This document shows, in pieces, positions 16,779 to 26,919 of a DNA stretch of 64,000 nucleotides. The notes under the pieces are model-generated. The model searched no databases. It was not told the DNA's origin and saw only the letters and a program-made list of their open reading frames with translations. Numbering within the stretch: the first letter of the stretch is position 1; every line of letters starts with the position of its first letter. The position numbers and the translations under genes are program-made. The stretch is from assembly GCF_023169885.1 (NCBI RefSeq), contig NZ_AP025516.1, positions 186,001 to 250,000 on the forward strand. Direction: 5' to 3'. This DNA comes from Desulfofustis limnaeus (lineage in GTDB: Bacteria; Desulfobacterota; Desulfobulbia; Desulfobulbales; Desulfocapsaceae).

Positions 16779-16827
16779 AAGCAACCTCGTTTGATGACAA
16801 AATCAGAGCAAGTCTTGTTCTTCACCA

Positions 16828-16934
16828 TAACTCCGAGCCAAAGGACCTACGTCTGCGTCATTCGTACGATATGGTCCGCGGCCGAAAGGGCTGCATGGGA
16901 AACCATCCCGCCTTCCGCTATCGAAAAGGAGTGA
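16828..16934 (+). promoter_or_regulatory. Molybdenum cofactor (Moco) riboswitch-like leader of moaA
   Basis: The 158 bp before moaA holds a structured leader. ACTCC (16830-16834) can pair with GGAGT (16928-16932), which is the moaA ribosome-binding site. Inside lie AGGACC paired with GGTCC, a GGCC-GAAA-GGGC hairpin (about 16879-16890), a GGGA/TCCC hairpin (about 16897-16908), and GCCTTCCGCTATCGAAAAGG just before the start. This order and the 3' block resemble the moaA Moco motif of enterobacteria. Closing the outer helix would hide the ribosome-binding site, giving translational control. Identity is from pattern memory, not a covariance search. Confidence 0.7.
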
Positions 16935-16936
16935 TC

Positions 16937-17959
16937 ATGCGGTTCGTCCAGCACACGGACGACGGGTCTGGTCCGGGGCCCGTCGCTTCCCCTCTCGTTG
17001 ATAATTTCAACCGGTCTATCAGCTATCTGCGCCTGGCCATCACCGATCGATGCAATCTTCGATGCCGTTACTGTATGCCAGAACAGGGCGTGGTTCCCAT
17101 GTCCCATGCCGAGTTGCTCAGTTATGAAGAACTGGAACGGTTGGTCAGCATCTGTCTTGGCCTGGGTATAAGCAAAGTCCGGGTGACCGGAGGCGAACCG
17201 TTTGTCCGTAAAGGATGTGTCGATTTCATGGATAGACTCAAGCGGCAGCTTGGCGTCAAAGGCTTATATGTGACCACCAACGGCGTGGACACGGCGCCTC
17301 ATCTGCCGCGCCTGCAGGAAATCGGTATCGACGGGATCAACCTGAGTCTGGATACGCTGGATCGAAACTGGTTCCGCAACATAACCCGGCGCGATCGGTT
17401 GGACCAGGTGTTGGCCACCCTGTACGGGGCATTGGAGCGGGATATCCGTATAAAAATCAACAGCGTCGTCGAGGAAGATACTCCCGATGAGGACCTTACC
17501 GCGTTGGCCCGGCTGGCCCGGACCAATCCGTTGAGCCTGCGTTTTATCGAGAAGATGGCTTTTTCCGGTGGTGGTTCGAGACCGCCTCAACGGCCTTTGG
17601 CGGACAGGCTGCAGAGGCTTTTTCCGGCAATGGCCAAGATCGAGCAACAAGGGATCAGCACGGCCCGTCTTTTCCGTGTGCCCGGTTTTGTCGGTACTCT
17701 TGGTATCATCGAGGGATATTCCCGTCATTTTTGCGCCACCTGCAATAAGATTCGAGTGACGCCAAACGGTATGCTCAAGACCTGCCTCTATGATGATGGC
17801 GTCCTTGACCTGCGCCAGATGCTGCGCAACGGGCTAACCGATGAGGCCATCGGAGCAGCGATCAGGGAGAGTGTCAGCCGTCGGTTCGCCAACGGTCATC
17901 TCACTGAGAAGAGTCTCAAGAACCATGGTGAGCCATCGATGGCGACCATCGGCGGTTGA
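16937..17959 (+). CDS. moaA: MoaA, GTP 3',8-cyclase (molybdenum cofactor step 1)
   Basis: 340 residues. Radical-SAM cysteines are in CNLRCRYCMP (about 44-53). The second cluster site is FCATCNKIRVTPNGMLKTC toward the C-terminus, and the protein ends IGG, keeping the conserved Gly-Gly tail. MoaA converts GTP to 3',8-cyclo-dihydro-GTP. The ATG at 16937 is chosen over a longer frame because AAGGAGT lies 6 bases upstream and the upstream codons fall in the structured leader. moeA follows after 14 bp. Confidence 0.95.
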   Translation: MRFVQHTDDGSGPGPVASPLVDNFNRSISYLRLAITDRCNLRCRYCMPEQGVVPMSHAELLSYEELERLVSICLGLGISKVRVTGGEPFVRKGCVDFMDRLKRQLGVKGLYVTTNGVDTAPHLPRLQEIGIDGINLSLDTLDRNWFRNITRRDRLDQVLATLYGALERDIRIKINSVVEEDTPDEDLTALARLARTNPLSLRFIEKMAFSGGGSRPPQRPLADRLQRLFPAMAKIEQQGISTARLFRVPGFVGTLGIIEGYSRHFCATCNKIRVTPNGMLKTCLYDDGVLDLRQMLRNGLTDEAIGAAIRESVSRRFANGHLTEKSLKNHGEPSMATIGG

Positions 17960-24508: not shown

Positions 24509-26308
24509 ATGCAGCAGCGTTTTATTCGAAATGTGGCGATAATCGCCCATGTTGATCATGGCAAGACCACATTGGTCGATCAGTTATTTAAGCATTCCGG
24601 CATGTTTCGTGAAAACCAGGCAGTTGCCGAACGGCTCATGGATTCCATGGATCTGGAGCGGGAACGGGGTATTACCATCACCGCCAAGAACGGCTCCTAT
24701 CGCTACGGCGATTATTGGATCAACATTATCGATACCCCCGGCCATGCCGATTTTGGCGGTCAGGTCGAGCGGGTGCTGCGCATGGCCGATGGTGCGCTGT
24801 TGCTCGTGGACGCCCAGGAAGGCCCGATGCCCCAGACCTATTTCGTGTTGAAGAAGGCCCTGGCTAATCGTTTGCCGGTCATCGTCGTGGTCAACAAAAT
24901 CGACAAACCCGCCGCTCGCTGCGAGTGGGTCGTGGACCAGGTCTTCGATCTCTTTGTCAAGTTGAACGCCCCTGATGAGATACTCGACTTCCCGGTTGTC
25001 TATACCTCCGCCAAACAAGGGTATGCGTTGAACGATCCGGCCGAGGCGGTCGTGGATGGCGGATCCATGGCGCCGGTCTCGGAAATGATCGTCAAACACA
25101 TACCGGCCCCGGCGGGATCTCCTGACATGCCGTTGCAGATGCAGGTGGGCACGATCGATTACTCGCCCTATCTCGGTCGTCTCGGCATCGGTAAGGTGGT
25201 GAACGGTACCCTGGCCATCAACCAGCCGGTGGTCGTGGCCCGGCGGGACGGCTCGATTCGACCGGTGCGGATTTCCAAGATATTTCACTTTGATCGGGAC
25301 CAGAAGATTGCTGTTGACCGGGCCTCGACCGGCGAGATTGTGGCCATCGCCGGCATGGAGGACGTCACCGTCGGGGTGACTTTCACCGACCCGGATGATC
25401 CCCGGCCGTTGCCGCTCATAGATATTGATCCGCCTACCATTTCGATGGATTTTATCCCGAACGATTCACCGTTTGCCGGCAATGAAGGACGGTTTGTCAC
25501 CTCCCGGCATCTCAAGGATCGGTTGGAGAGGGAGACCTTGGCCGATGTGGCGTTGCAGGTTGAGCCGCTGCAGGACGGGGTGGGATTCAAGGTGTCGGGA
25601 CGCGGTGAGTTGCACTTGTCCATTTTGATCGAAAAGATGCGCCGCGAAGGCTATGAGTTGCAGGCCACCCGACCGCGGGTGATCATGCGCCAGCAGGATG
25701 GGCAGGTGCTTGAGCCGTATGAGCGGTTGACGGTTGATGTCGATGAGCAGTATCAGGGAGCGGTGATCGAGAAGCTCGGCAAATTGCGCGGACAACTGGA
25801 GGAGATGACGCAGAATCACGGCCTGACCAGGATGGTGTTCGTTGTACCCACCCGCGGTCTGCTCGGTTACCGGCCCCAGTTCATGACCGACACCAAAGGG
25901 ATGGGCACCATGAGTTACGTATTTCATGGTTACGGACCGTATGCCGGAGACATTGTCAATCGCCTCAATGGCGCCCTGGTGGTTAAGGAGCAGTGTGTTT
26001 CCGTGGCCTACGCCCTGTTCAACCTGCAGGAGCGCGGTACGCTTTTTATCGGCCCGGGTCAACCGCTGTATCCTGGTCAGATCATCGGCGAGCATTGCCG
26101 GAGCGGGGATCTGACCGTCAACCCTGCCAAAGGCAAGAAGCTCACCAACATCAGGGCATCGGGTTCAGACGATGCGGTTCTTTTAACCCCGCCGCGCTTG
26201 CTCTCTCTGGAAGACTGTCTATCGTTTATCAACGATGATGAGTTGGTCGAGGTGACACCGGCCTCGATCAGGTTGCGCAAGCGACCTACGGCGAAAACGA
26301 GGGGGTAG
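24509..26308 (+). CDS. typA: TypA/BipA ribosome-associated GTPase
   Basis: 599 residues. G1 is AHVDHGKTTLVDQL (about 14-27), G2 lies within RERGITITAKN, G3 is DTPGHADFGG and G4 is NKIDKPAAR. EF-G-like domains and the BipA-specific C-terminal domain follow (RGLLGYRPQFMTDTKGMGTM). TypA assists 50S assembly and growth under stress. Length is typical. A ribosome-binding site is weak, with AAGAGG about 20 bases away. A tiny membrane ORF follows 8 bp after the stop. Confidence 0.97.
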   Translation: MQQRFIRNVAIIAHVDHGKTTLVDQLFKHSGMFRENQAVAERLMDSMDLERERGITITAKNGSYRYGDYWINIIDTPGHADFGGQVERVLRMADGALLLVDAQEGPMPQTYFVLKKALANRLPVIVVVNKIDKPAARCEWVVDQVFDLFVKLNAPDEILDFPVVYTSAKQGYALNDPAEAVVDGGSMAPVSEMIVKHIPAPAGSPDMPLQMQVGTIDYSPYLGRLGIGKVVNGTLAINQPVVVARRDGSIRPVRISKIFHFDRDQKIAVDRASTGEIVAIAGMEDVTVGVTFTDPDDPRPLPLIDIDPPTISMDFIPNDSPFAGNEGRFVTSRHLKDRLERETLADVALQVEPLQDGVGFKVSGRGELHLSILIEKMRREGYELQATRPRVIMRQQDGQVLEPYERLTVDVDEQYQGAVIEKLGKLRGQLEEMTQNHGLTRMVFVVPTRGLLGYRPQFMTDTKGMGTMSYVFHGYGPYAGDIVNRLNGALVVKEQCVSVAYALFNLQERGTLFIGPGQPLYPGQIIGEHCRSGDLTVNPAKGKKLTNIRASGSDDAVLLTPPRLLSLEDCLSFINDDELVEVTPASIRLRKRPTAKTRG

Positions 26309-26316
26309 ATAGAGCG

Positions 26317-26478
26317 ATGAAGACGATTATTTCGGTGGTCTTGGCGTTTCTGGTGGGAGGCGCCGTGTTCGCCTTGATCAGAAAAAAACTTGGCAGTGAT
26401 TGCGTTCCCTGACTGATCCTCTATGGCTCCGTGGGTACGGGGCTTCTCACCTTCTGGCTGCTCCATCTGGTCCTGTAG
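26317..26478 (+). CDS. Tiny two-helix membrane protein with in-frame UGA; candidate selenoprotein
   Basis: From ATG 26317 the frame encodes 31 residues (helix VVLAFLVGGAVFALI, then RKKLGSDCVP) and reaches TGA at 26410-26412. Reading through gives 21 more codons with a second hydrophobic helix and a TAG at 26476-26478, 10 bp before the convergent Nudix gene. With UGA as selenocysteine the loop reads C29-V-P-U32, a CxxU redox motif. A 7-bp hairpin with loop GGGU begins 13 nt after the UGA. GAGGGGG lies about 11 bases before the ATG. Alternatives: a 31-residue protein ending at TGA, or a nonsense-mutated remnant. The selB/selC genes are not in the window. Confidence 0.4.
26426..26443 (+). promoter_or_regulatory. 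bSECIS-like hairpin downstream of in-frame UGA
   Basis: GCTCCGT (26426-26432), loop GGGT, ACGGGGC (26437-26443). It forms a 7-bp stem with one U-G pair. The loop starts with G and ends with U and lies 21 nt after the UGA, within the distance seen for bacterial SECIS elements. No bulged U is evident, which weakens the case. Confidence 0.35.
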
Positions 26479-26487
26479 CGGGCCGAT

Positions 26488-26919
26488 TCAACGGGGGTGC
26501 CGATCCCTCCAGCGAAAATAATCGGCCAGGATACGGCCGTGGTCGAAGGCCAGCTCCGGTAGATTATCTCGAGAAAATAGTTCTGCTTGGCCGGCATCGT
26601 CGCCGGCTTGGGGGGATCCTTCTGCCTCGGCCACGAATACGGTGGATGCCGTGTGCATACGCGGGTCGCGTCCCGGTTCGGAATAGGTGCGAAATTGCTG
26701 CAGGTTGGTGACGTCCAGGCCGGTTTCCTCTTTGGCTTCCCGAATTGCGGCGGTCTCGTAGGACTCGCCATAATCGACAAAACCTCCCGGCAAGGCCCAG
26801 CCGGGCGGCGGGTTGCGCCGTTCGATGAGAACGATGCGGGACCCGATCTCGATAATGATATCAACCGTGGGGATCGGGTTTATCGGTGTGATGACGGTGT
26901 GACAGGTGGGACATTTCAT
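26488..26919 (-). CDS. Nudix hydrolase with N-terminal zinc-ribbon-like start
   Basis: 143 residues. The Nudix box is complete: [20 protein letters not shown] followed by ETGL (pattern Gx5Ex7REUxEExGU). The protein opens MKCPTCHTV, half of a zinc-ribbon-like CxxC. Such enzymes hydrolyse nucleoside diphosphates linked to another moiety; the substrate cannot be assigned. The start overlaps the HAD gene's stop by 4 bp, so the two are cotranscribed and may both act on nucleotides. Confidence 0.92.

Follow-up and report, generated by a model that had tools for sequence, protein, structure and literature searches.

A Cys-x-x-Sec (CxxU) pair is a usual signature of selenol-thiol redox chemistry. DsbB has four helices and two Cys pairs. 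VKOR is a four-helix bundle with a CxxC next to the quinone, and its active-site helix carries a Tyr at +4 from the second Cys. The FeoB-associated Cys-rich membrane proteins (PF12669) are short and have one N-terminal helix, then basic residues and Cys, and are not known to have a second helix. The available part of the 2026 review PMC13188914 lists CxxU as a redox-related motif and contains several CxxU selenoprotein families (SelW-like, AhpD-like, FrhD, GrdA and others) with a UGA-encoded residue and a downstream bSECIS. The families it lists include those from Haft and Tolstoy 2025 and Zhang and Gladyshev 2007, many with NCBIfam identifiers. The locus of Desulfofustis limnaeus described here likewise combines a UGA residue, a downstream bSECIS-like hairpin and a CxxU motif. 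Unlike the catalogued CxxU families, its predicted product has 53 residues and two hydrophobic helices, has no NCBIfam match over the cut-off, and belongs to a family whose Cys form was seen in one genus only.

The locus lies in a window of 64,000 nucleotides, which is the whole stretch of DNA that we analyzed. Its features are as follows.

24509..26308, + strand: typA/bipA, translational GTPase, upstream neighbour (TIGR01394, 847.8 bits, cut-off 757.3)
26317..26478, + strand: putative selenoprotein gene, 53 codons including one UGA; start ATG at 26317, stop TAG at 26476-26478
26320..26388, + strand: first hydrophobic helix, residues 2-24, with RKK end (AlphaFold2 H2-24, low confidence)
26401..26412, + strand: C-x-x-U motif, TGC GTT CCC TGA
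26404..26472, + strand: second hydrophobic helix, residues 30-52, beginning inside C-x-x-U, with Y36, G40 and G42
26425..26444, + strand: bSECIS-like hairpin, 8-bp stem 26425-26432/26437-26444, loop GGGU at 26433-26436
26488..26919, - strand: NUDIX hydrolase, convergent neighbour (PF00293, E 3.4e-24)

The TGA at 26410-26412 is in phase with the frame 26317-26478. With U at the TGA, the translation is MKTIISVVLAFLVGGAVFALIRKKLGSDCVPULILYGSVGTGLLTFWLLHLVL, laid out as helix, C29-x-x-U32 and helix. A hydrophobic stretch ending in RKK passes through GSD-CVPU into a milder hydrophobic stretch. Helix 1 (residues 3-21) has a hydropathy of 2.65, and the segment after the TGA has a modest Kyte-Doolittle mean of 1.54. 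An earlier note, made from the letters alone, had claimed that the frame stays in phase through the TGA at 26410 to a second helix and that the UGA makes a CxxU motif; the translation agrees on both points. Its hairpin with a GGGU loop downstream was also found, but the stem has 8 bp instead of 7 and the loop begins 20 nt past the UGA. Likewise, the frame does stop close before a convergent gene, but 9 bp separate the TAG from the NUDIX gene rather than the 10 bp given earlier. The ATG is 8 bp past the typA stop, and typA is a probable operon partner of the selenoprotein gene in the D. limnaeus lineage. The NUDIX hydrolase gene is not part of the selenoprotein system. Elsewhere in the window, a molybdenum/tungsten cofactor riboswitch was found at 16819-16947 on the + strand (RF01055, 58.4 bits, gathering 36).

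To compare the protein with known families, we searched NCBIfam 20.0, Pfam and PDB. NCBIfam, which may not model every catalogued family in this release, returned no family for the D. limnaeus protein at E <= 10. Ten members scanned singly gave none above the cut-off. When all 50 members were scanned (E-values only), the best was 4.7e-4, for DsbB, which is below the cut-off. Pfam gave no match over the cut-off for the D. limnaeus protein or the 50 members, and a known curated family was rejected on these NCBIfam and Pfam results. A PDB sequence search with the family profile returned nothing at E <= 10. Table 1 of PMC13188914 has 119 families or subfamilies, and no description among them is of a membrane protein with two helices and this size; many entries there consist of a name and a motif with no further description. 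The statement of the earlier note that no family of such shape is known thus holds for NCBIfam, Pfam and Table 1. The deep-Sep study screened Desulfosediminicola flagellatus IMCC35005 and D. ganghwensis IMCC35004. None of its nine new families fits by name, as far as its text goes without its known-gene list. Three of the nine are hypothetical proteins; two of these are listed with a motif in the available part of PMC13188914 (GUxG and GxU), the third without one. The family is undescribed in the sources checked, namely NCBIfam, Pfam and the accessible parts of PMC13188914, PMC2398784, PMC9312934 and PMC8318568. On sequence evidence it is apparently a genuine selenoprotein of a new family, not described in those sources.

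The protein resembles the N-terminal half of DsbB (PF02600) in its order of helix, Cys pair and helix, with the Cys pair heading the second helix. In one Cys-form member, residues 2-34 align to positions 15-47 of the DsbB model (E 4.7e-4, 19.9 bits, cut-off 138). However, the new protein is about one third the size (53 residues versus 145-148 in four relatives), has no second Cys pair, and has a charged loop, which suggests that the motif faces the other side of the membrane than in DsbB. The four helices and two Cys pairs of DsbB are not matched by one Cys-x-x-Sec and two helices in a low-confidence model. An hhalign profile comparison with four DsbB from relatives gave a probability of 0.3% over 7 columns, and PF02600 reached a best E of 0.068 in one of the 50 members. 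DsbB homology, hinted at by the weak Cys-form hit, was not supported by the profile comparison. Of the 30 relatives searched for DsbB itself, 4 gave a hit.

Like the active-site helix of VKOR, all 117 Sec members have a Tyr at +4 after C-x-x-U. The two Cys forms have Asn at this position. In contrast to VKOR, the protein has two helices only. Neither VKOR nor MerT (PF02411) appeared among the Pfam matches at E <= 1 for the 50 members, without direct profile comparison for either. PF12669 shares the short length and the single N-terminal helix with basic residues and Cys after it, whereas no counterpart of the second helix is known in it; its score against the D. limnaeus protein (E 0.073, 13.8 bits) is below the cut-off of 27.

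The conservation of the UGA codon was examined by protein search in 58 whole genomes, including D. limnaeus itself and relatives. Some match at E <= 10 was obtained in 50 of them. By inspection of the matches, the family is present in 49 and absent from nine (G003, G007, G020, G023, G035, G042, G045, G046 and G053). Codon 32 is exactly one TGA in 47 of the 49 gene-holding genomes and TGC in the other two (G037 and G050, both of one genus; sequences L063 and L066). One genome, G012, has three family copies (C1, C41 and C42). We aligned 50 sequences from the 49 genomes, leaving out the third G012 copy (C42). The Sec codon is TGA in 48 of these and TGC in 2. The first Cys is present in 50/50, as is Sec or Cys at position 32; Pro precedes position 32 in 44/50, Tyr follows at +4 in 48/50, and Gly is found at +8 and again at +10, each in 48/50. 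The earlier note had proposed to look in relatives for a UGA or a Cys codon in phase with the 3′ helix, and had taken homologues that end at the TGA or carry other sense codons there as refuting. Relatives do have the 3′ helix in phase with a UGA, which is replaced by UGC in the two genomes of one genus, and none of the 50 aligned homologues stops at the TGA or shows any codon besides TGA and TGC.

To determine whether the region after the TGA is coding, we calculated the mean pairwise identity at each codon position in the 48 TGA members. The values were 0.57/0.63/0.41 for codons -15 to -1, 0.67/0.86/0.47 for codons +1 to +10, and 0.48/0.63/0.36 for codons +11 to +20. Past the true stop they were 0.256/0.248/0.250. 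Since the identity after the TGA is of the coding type and falls to about 0.25 only past the stop, the sequence between the TGA and the final stop evolves as protein, unlike that beyond the final stop, and the earlier claim that the coding pattern does not decay after the TGA is borne out. Frames that stay open past a TGA are not in themselves rare: 19 or more open codons follow in 157 of the 286 mechanically called neighbouring ORFs that have TGA as their stop. Only 2 of those 157 extensions reach a Kyte-Doolittle mean of at least 1.5, compared with 1.54 for the selenoprotein segment. Helix 2 is only mildly hydrophobic across the family, with a mean of 1.5 reached by 49 of 117 members. It is the conservation, as read from the aligned sequences, that lifts the case above chance. 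An ordinary stop or nonsense mutation, leaving a 31-residue single-helix peptide with the remainder decayed or non-coding, was rejected and retains hardly any credibility: helix 1 is indeed complete ahead of the TGA and such open extensions are common, but the same TGA position with conserved 3′ protein and triplet periodicity is found in 47 of the 49 genomes, the codon is TGC in two, and both protein and hairpin are conserved past it. The alignment supports translation of the UGA into a residue replaceable by Cys.

The hairpin was compared in the 48 TGA members in one register: UGA, 12 nt, 8-bp stem, 4-nt loop and second arm. Stem pairing was 89.1% of 384 cells, a level that 0 of 500 shuffles reached. 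Changes on both sides were seen in 56 cells, and the covariation score was 0.375 where shuffles gave 0.184; neither value was reached by any of the 500 shuffles. When the partner was slid by 1-3 columns, pairing was 27-53% (highest 53.1%). Two weaker measures out of the five were not decisive. Two-sided change occurred in 5 of 8 pairs versus 3.5, a count that 55 of 500 shuffles reached. The further pair types numbered 15 versus 12.5, which 19 of 500 shuffles reached, and a slide of +3 gave more, 17. As a control for coding constraint, synonymous codons were resampled 1000 times from the family's own pool. The resampled sequences paired at 70.4% (sd 2.0, maximum 76.6%) and gave full stems in a mean of 3.4 and at most 11 members, compared with 27 of 48 observed. 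The hairpin pairs beyond what the protein sequence forces. Fewer than 6 of the 8 pairs are in register in 7 of the 48 members. Pairing was 87.8% in 76 new sequences from a pattern scan, a biased figure since the pattern required some hairpin letters.

Common loops are AGGU, GGGC, GGGU and AGGC, and the second loop position is G in 48/48. According to the available part of PMC13188914, most bSECIS elements have a G within the first two loop positions and lie 16-37 nt from the UGA. The hairpin meets both criteria, with its loop G and its spacing of 20 nt. On the bSECIS check that the earlier note had suggested, a covarying, bSECIS-like hairpin is present.

The D. limnaeus genome contains a tRNA-Sec (selC; 72.5 bits, gathering 47) with anticodon TCA and a SelB of 364.7 bits (cut-off 242). 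It also has two selD genes, at G000:C1:281600-282523 and 929270-930196, with one in-frame TGA each, which makes two Sec-containing selenophosphate synthetases in one genome probable. The search of this genome did not find selA, whose expected site reads as N. In the closest relative (G001), selA is beside GGDEF/TPR-like, LOG-family-like and pilT-like genes, named by reading their sequences. D. limnaeus keeps these three neighbours, and exactly 5000 N stand where selA would follow (G000:C1:1947501-1952500; L227:4002-9001). This run may explain why selA is missing from the search; it leaves selA untested in this genome, and its presence is not shown. Of the genes that the earlier note had proposed to look for, selB and selC are thus present and selA is undecided.

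Across the 58 genomes, SelB was found at E 1e-70 in 51 and SelA at E 1e-5 in 51. Five of the 49 gene-holding genomes had no SelB at E <= 1e-70 (G011, G025, G031, G036 and G055), and four of these (G025, G031, G036 and G055) have SelA despite this. SelA was not found at E 1e-5 in the gene-holding genomes G011, G013, G016 and G022, and was only weak in G008 (38.8 bits). All genomes with selB or selA gaps are drafts of 50 or more contigs, except G013 and G022. The strict threshold and the draft assemblies are possible causes of the selB gap, which remains unexplained. One genus, g11 (G011, G025 and G036), keeps the UGA gene with no selB at E <= 1e-70 and has selA in two of its three genomes.

We give almost no weight to the UGA being read otherwise, either by a near-cognate tRNA as Trp or by programmed readthrough with the hairpin as its signal: the four-base context is TGAC in 31 of the 48 TGA members and the residue has no biochemical proof, but the natural replacement in the two variants is Cys and not Trp, the hairpin has bSECIS spacing and a G-containing loop, and the genome has Sec machinery. 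Without any expression, 75Se or mass-spectrometric evidence, we are nonetheless nearly certain that the UGA is decoded as selenocysteine.

We explored the spread of the family with a profile of the 50 aligned sequences. At E <= 0.001 the profile matched 212 of 257 genomes of the order Desulfobulbales, which are sulfur-metabolising bacteria, and 135 of the 148 better ones (>= 90% complete, <= 5% contaminated). Among the order matches listed, all have one TGA except G050, which has the Cys form. Another 25 genomes of the order with lower-scoring or partial matches, examined separately, all have the TGA. In a phylum sample, 18 of 395 genomes matched, 15 of them from the order, D. limnaeus included, so that 3 of 380 genomes matched outside it. 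G096 is a plausible TGA member from another group of the phylum. The other two weak hits, G124 and G416, lack the TGA and were set aside; their sequence probably is unrelated.

A DNA pattern running from CxxU to the hairpin found 113 stretches in genome_contigs, where about 2 were expected by chance. By inspection of their translations, 109 belong to the family and 4 do not. The profile test at E <= 1e-3 passed 112 of the 113, which is uninformative, since the pattern forces the core motif. The scan required the TGA and some hairpin letters and so measures spread, not TGA conservation. A search of genome_contigs with the single D. limnaeus protein found no relative, and no match was obtained in phage records. 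Most titles in the scan are Desulfobulbaceae, Desulfocapsaceae, Desulfurivibrionaceae, genera such as Desulfobulbus and Desulforhopalus, or unspecific deltaproteobacteria or Proteobacteria; the outlying titles are Desulfonatronovibrio (L075), Desulfovibrio (L095) and an archaeal one (L167). Carrier isolates include Desulfofustis glycolicus DSM 9705, Desulforhopalus singaporensis DSM 12130, Desulfoprunum benzoelyticum DSM 28570, Desulfogranum mediterraneum DSM 13871, D. marinum DSM 2058, Desulfopila aestuarii DSM 18488 and Desulfosediminicola flagellatus IMCC35005 (L170). L167 (MCBF01000001.1, 1.39 Mb), titled Candidatus Altiarchaeales archaeon IMC4, has typA followed by the selenoprotein gene and is probably a bacterial contig put into an archaeal bin by mistake. 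In L069, L116 and L133, titled Desulfofustis sp. PB-SRB1, two copies encode an identical protein, and neither typA nor mtnA adjoins.

Gene neighbours were counted by tblastn on 109 scan loci. Directly upstream, typA was found in 65 of the 103 loci having at least 300 bp of upstream flank. Where at least 900 bp were available downstream (95 loci), a relative of the NUDIX gene was convergent in 57, and mtnA (methylthioribose-1-phosphate isomerase) followed on the same strand in 24. No locus of the 109 had typA and mtnA together, and 11 of the 90 loci with both flanks had neither. An ORF-based count gave typA in 55/88, mtnA in 24/95 and neither in 10; it missed typA genes lying under preferred antisense ORFs. 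In its 55 typA loci, typA ends a median of 8 bp ahead of the nominal start. We dropped typA as an obligate functional partner on the tblastn counts, and the neighbouring genes are not the same from lineage to lineage. The pattern looks more like lineage synteny than functional partnership.

AlphaFold2, run with 90 family sequences, predicted helices at residues 2-24 and 30-52 with a mean pLDDT of 68 and a pTM of 0.33. In this model the Cys-Sec pair would cap helix 2, at low confidence. Four PDB look-alikes had Z of 4.6-5.9: two ATP-synthase c-rings, CelTOS and a respiratory supercomplex chain. They are probably merely helical hairpins, and the model is too weak for claims about the fold. In 118 distinct proteins the loop has a mean of 2.29 K/R and 0.81 D/E per protein, the N-terminal segment 0.63 K/R and 0.53 acidic residues, and the C-terminal segment 0.74 K/R. 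Because the loop is basic, the positive-inside rule makes the cytoplasmic face more likely for CxxU, which suggests a motif at the cytoplasmic side with both termini outside. We infer with high confidence that the protein forms a hairpin of two helices within the cytoplasmic membrane, and our confidence is as high that this and the reading of the UGA as Sec hold together. Helix 2 carries the glycine pattern YG-S-x-G-x-G (G37, G40 and G42), which suggests packing with itself or with a partner, as a dimer or a larger oligomer.

The function is inferred. We consider a minimal membrane-interface selenol/thiol redox protein the most likely reading. SelB acting on the hairpin, 12 nt past the UGA, would put selenocysteine at codon 32; without Sec insertion, a 31-residue peptide with a single helix would result. 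Cys29-Sec32 would lie at the membrane surface, where helix 2 begins, and the pair would cycle between selenol-thiol and selenenylsulfide. Through it, a soluble thioredoxin-like partner may exchange electrons with a membrane component such as menaquinone or a membrane protein. We lean moderately towards the selenol-thiol redox function, which rests on the motif and the topology alone. A quinone or membrane electron partner is an inference that we regard as possible yet doubtful. By analogy, the protein may work somewhat like DsbB or VKOR and yet be neither.

Mercury is handled by other small membrane proteins that contain Cys, for example MerT. A selenoprotein that handles or transports a metal or oxyanion, with Cys and Sec binding a soft metal and the glycine-rich helix forming an oligomeric pore, would suit both this precedent and the glycines G37, G40 and G42. 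The two c-ring hairpins among the look-alikes point the same way, with weak Z of 5.9 and 5.8, and the available part of PMC13188914 catalogues a putative mercuric transport protein that occurs with Sec. Nevertheless, this function seems improbable to us, as MerT is missing from the Pfam matches at E <= 1 for the 50 members and no metal-resistance gene is among the neighbour clusters named, only part of which were named.

The protein could instead serve a larger membrane complex as an accessory or regulatory subunit, with the Cys-Sec pair as a redox switch reporting selenium or oxidant status. Its very small size and its broad retention in the order (212/257 genomes) fit this, as does the truncated form that, by inference, failed Sec insertion would yield. 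Against it, no neighbour is constant, with typA in one group, mtnA in another and never both in the 109 loci. We keep the subunit as a possibility, though not a likely one.

For the membrane-interface redox protein, we can also picture a more specific form. A dimer of the 53-residue protein would be a four-helix bundle and a minimal Sec-containing DsbB/VKOR, linking cytoplasmic thiols with the menaquinone pool, almost obligately Sec-dependent and core to the energy and redox economy of one order. This is a long shot. If true, it would be among the smallest membrane redox enzymes known, which is an expectation of ours only.

The architecture of two hydrophobic helices in 53 residues is new with respect to the descriptions in the PMC13188914 table. 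A gene finder that takes the UGA for a stop would be left here with a fragment of 31 residues, which we infer is likely too short to call. This is a blind spot, and other tiny selenoproteins may lie hidden elsewhere. If the redox reading is true, this family would offer a very small system for asking why a membrane protein keeps Sec over Cys.
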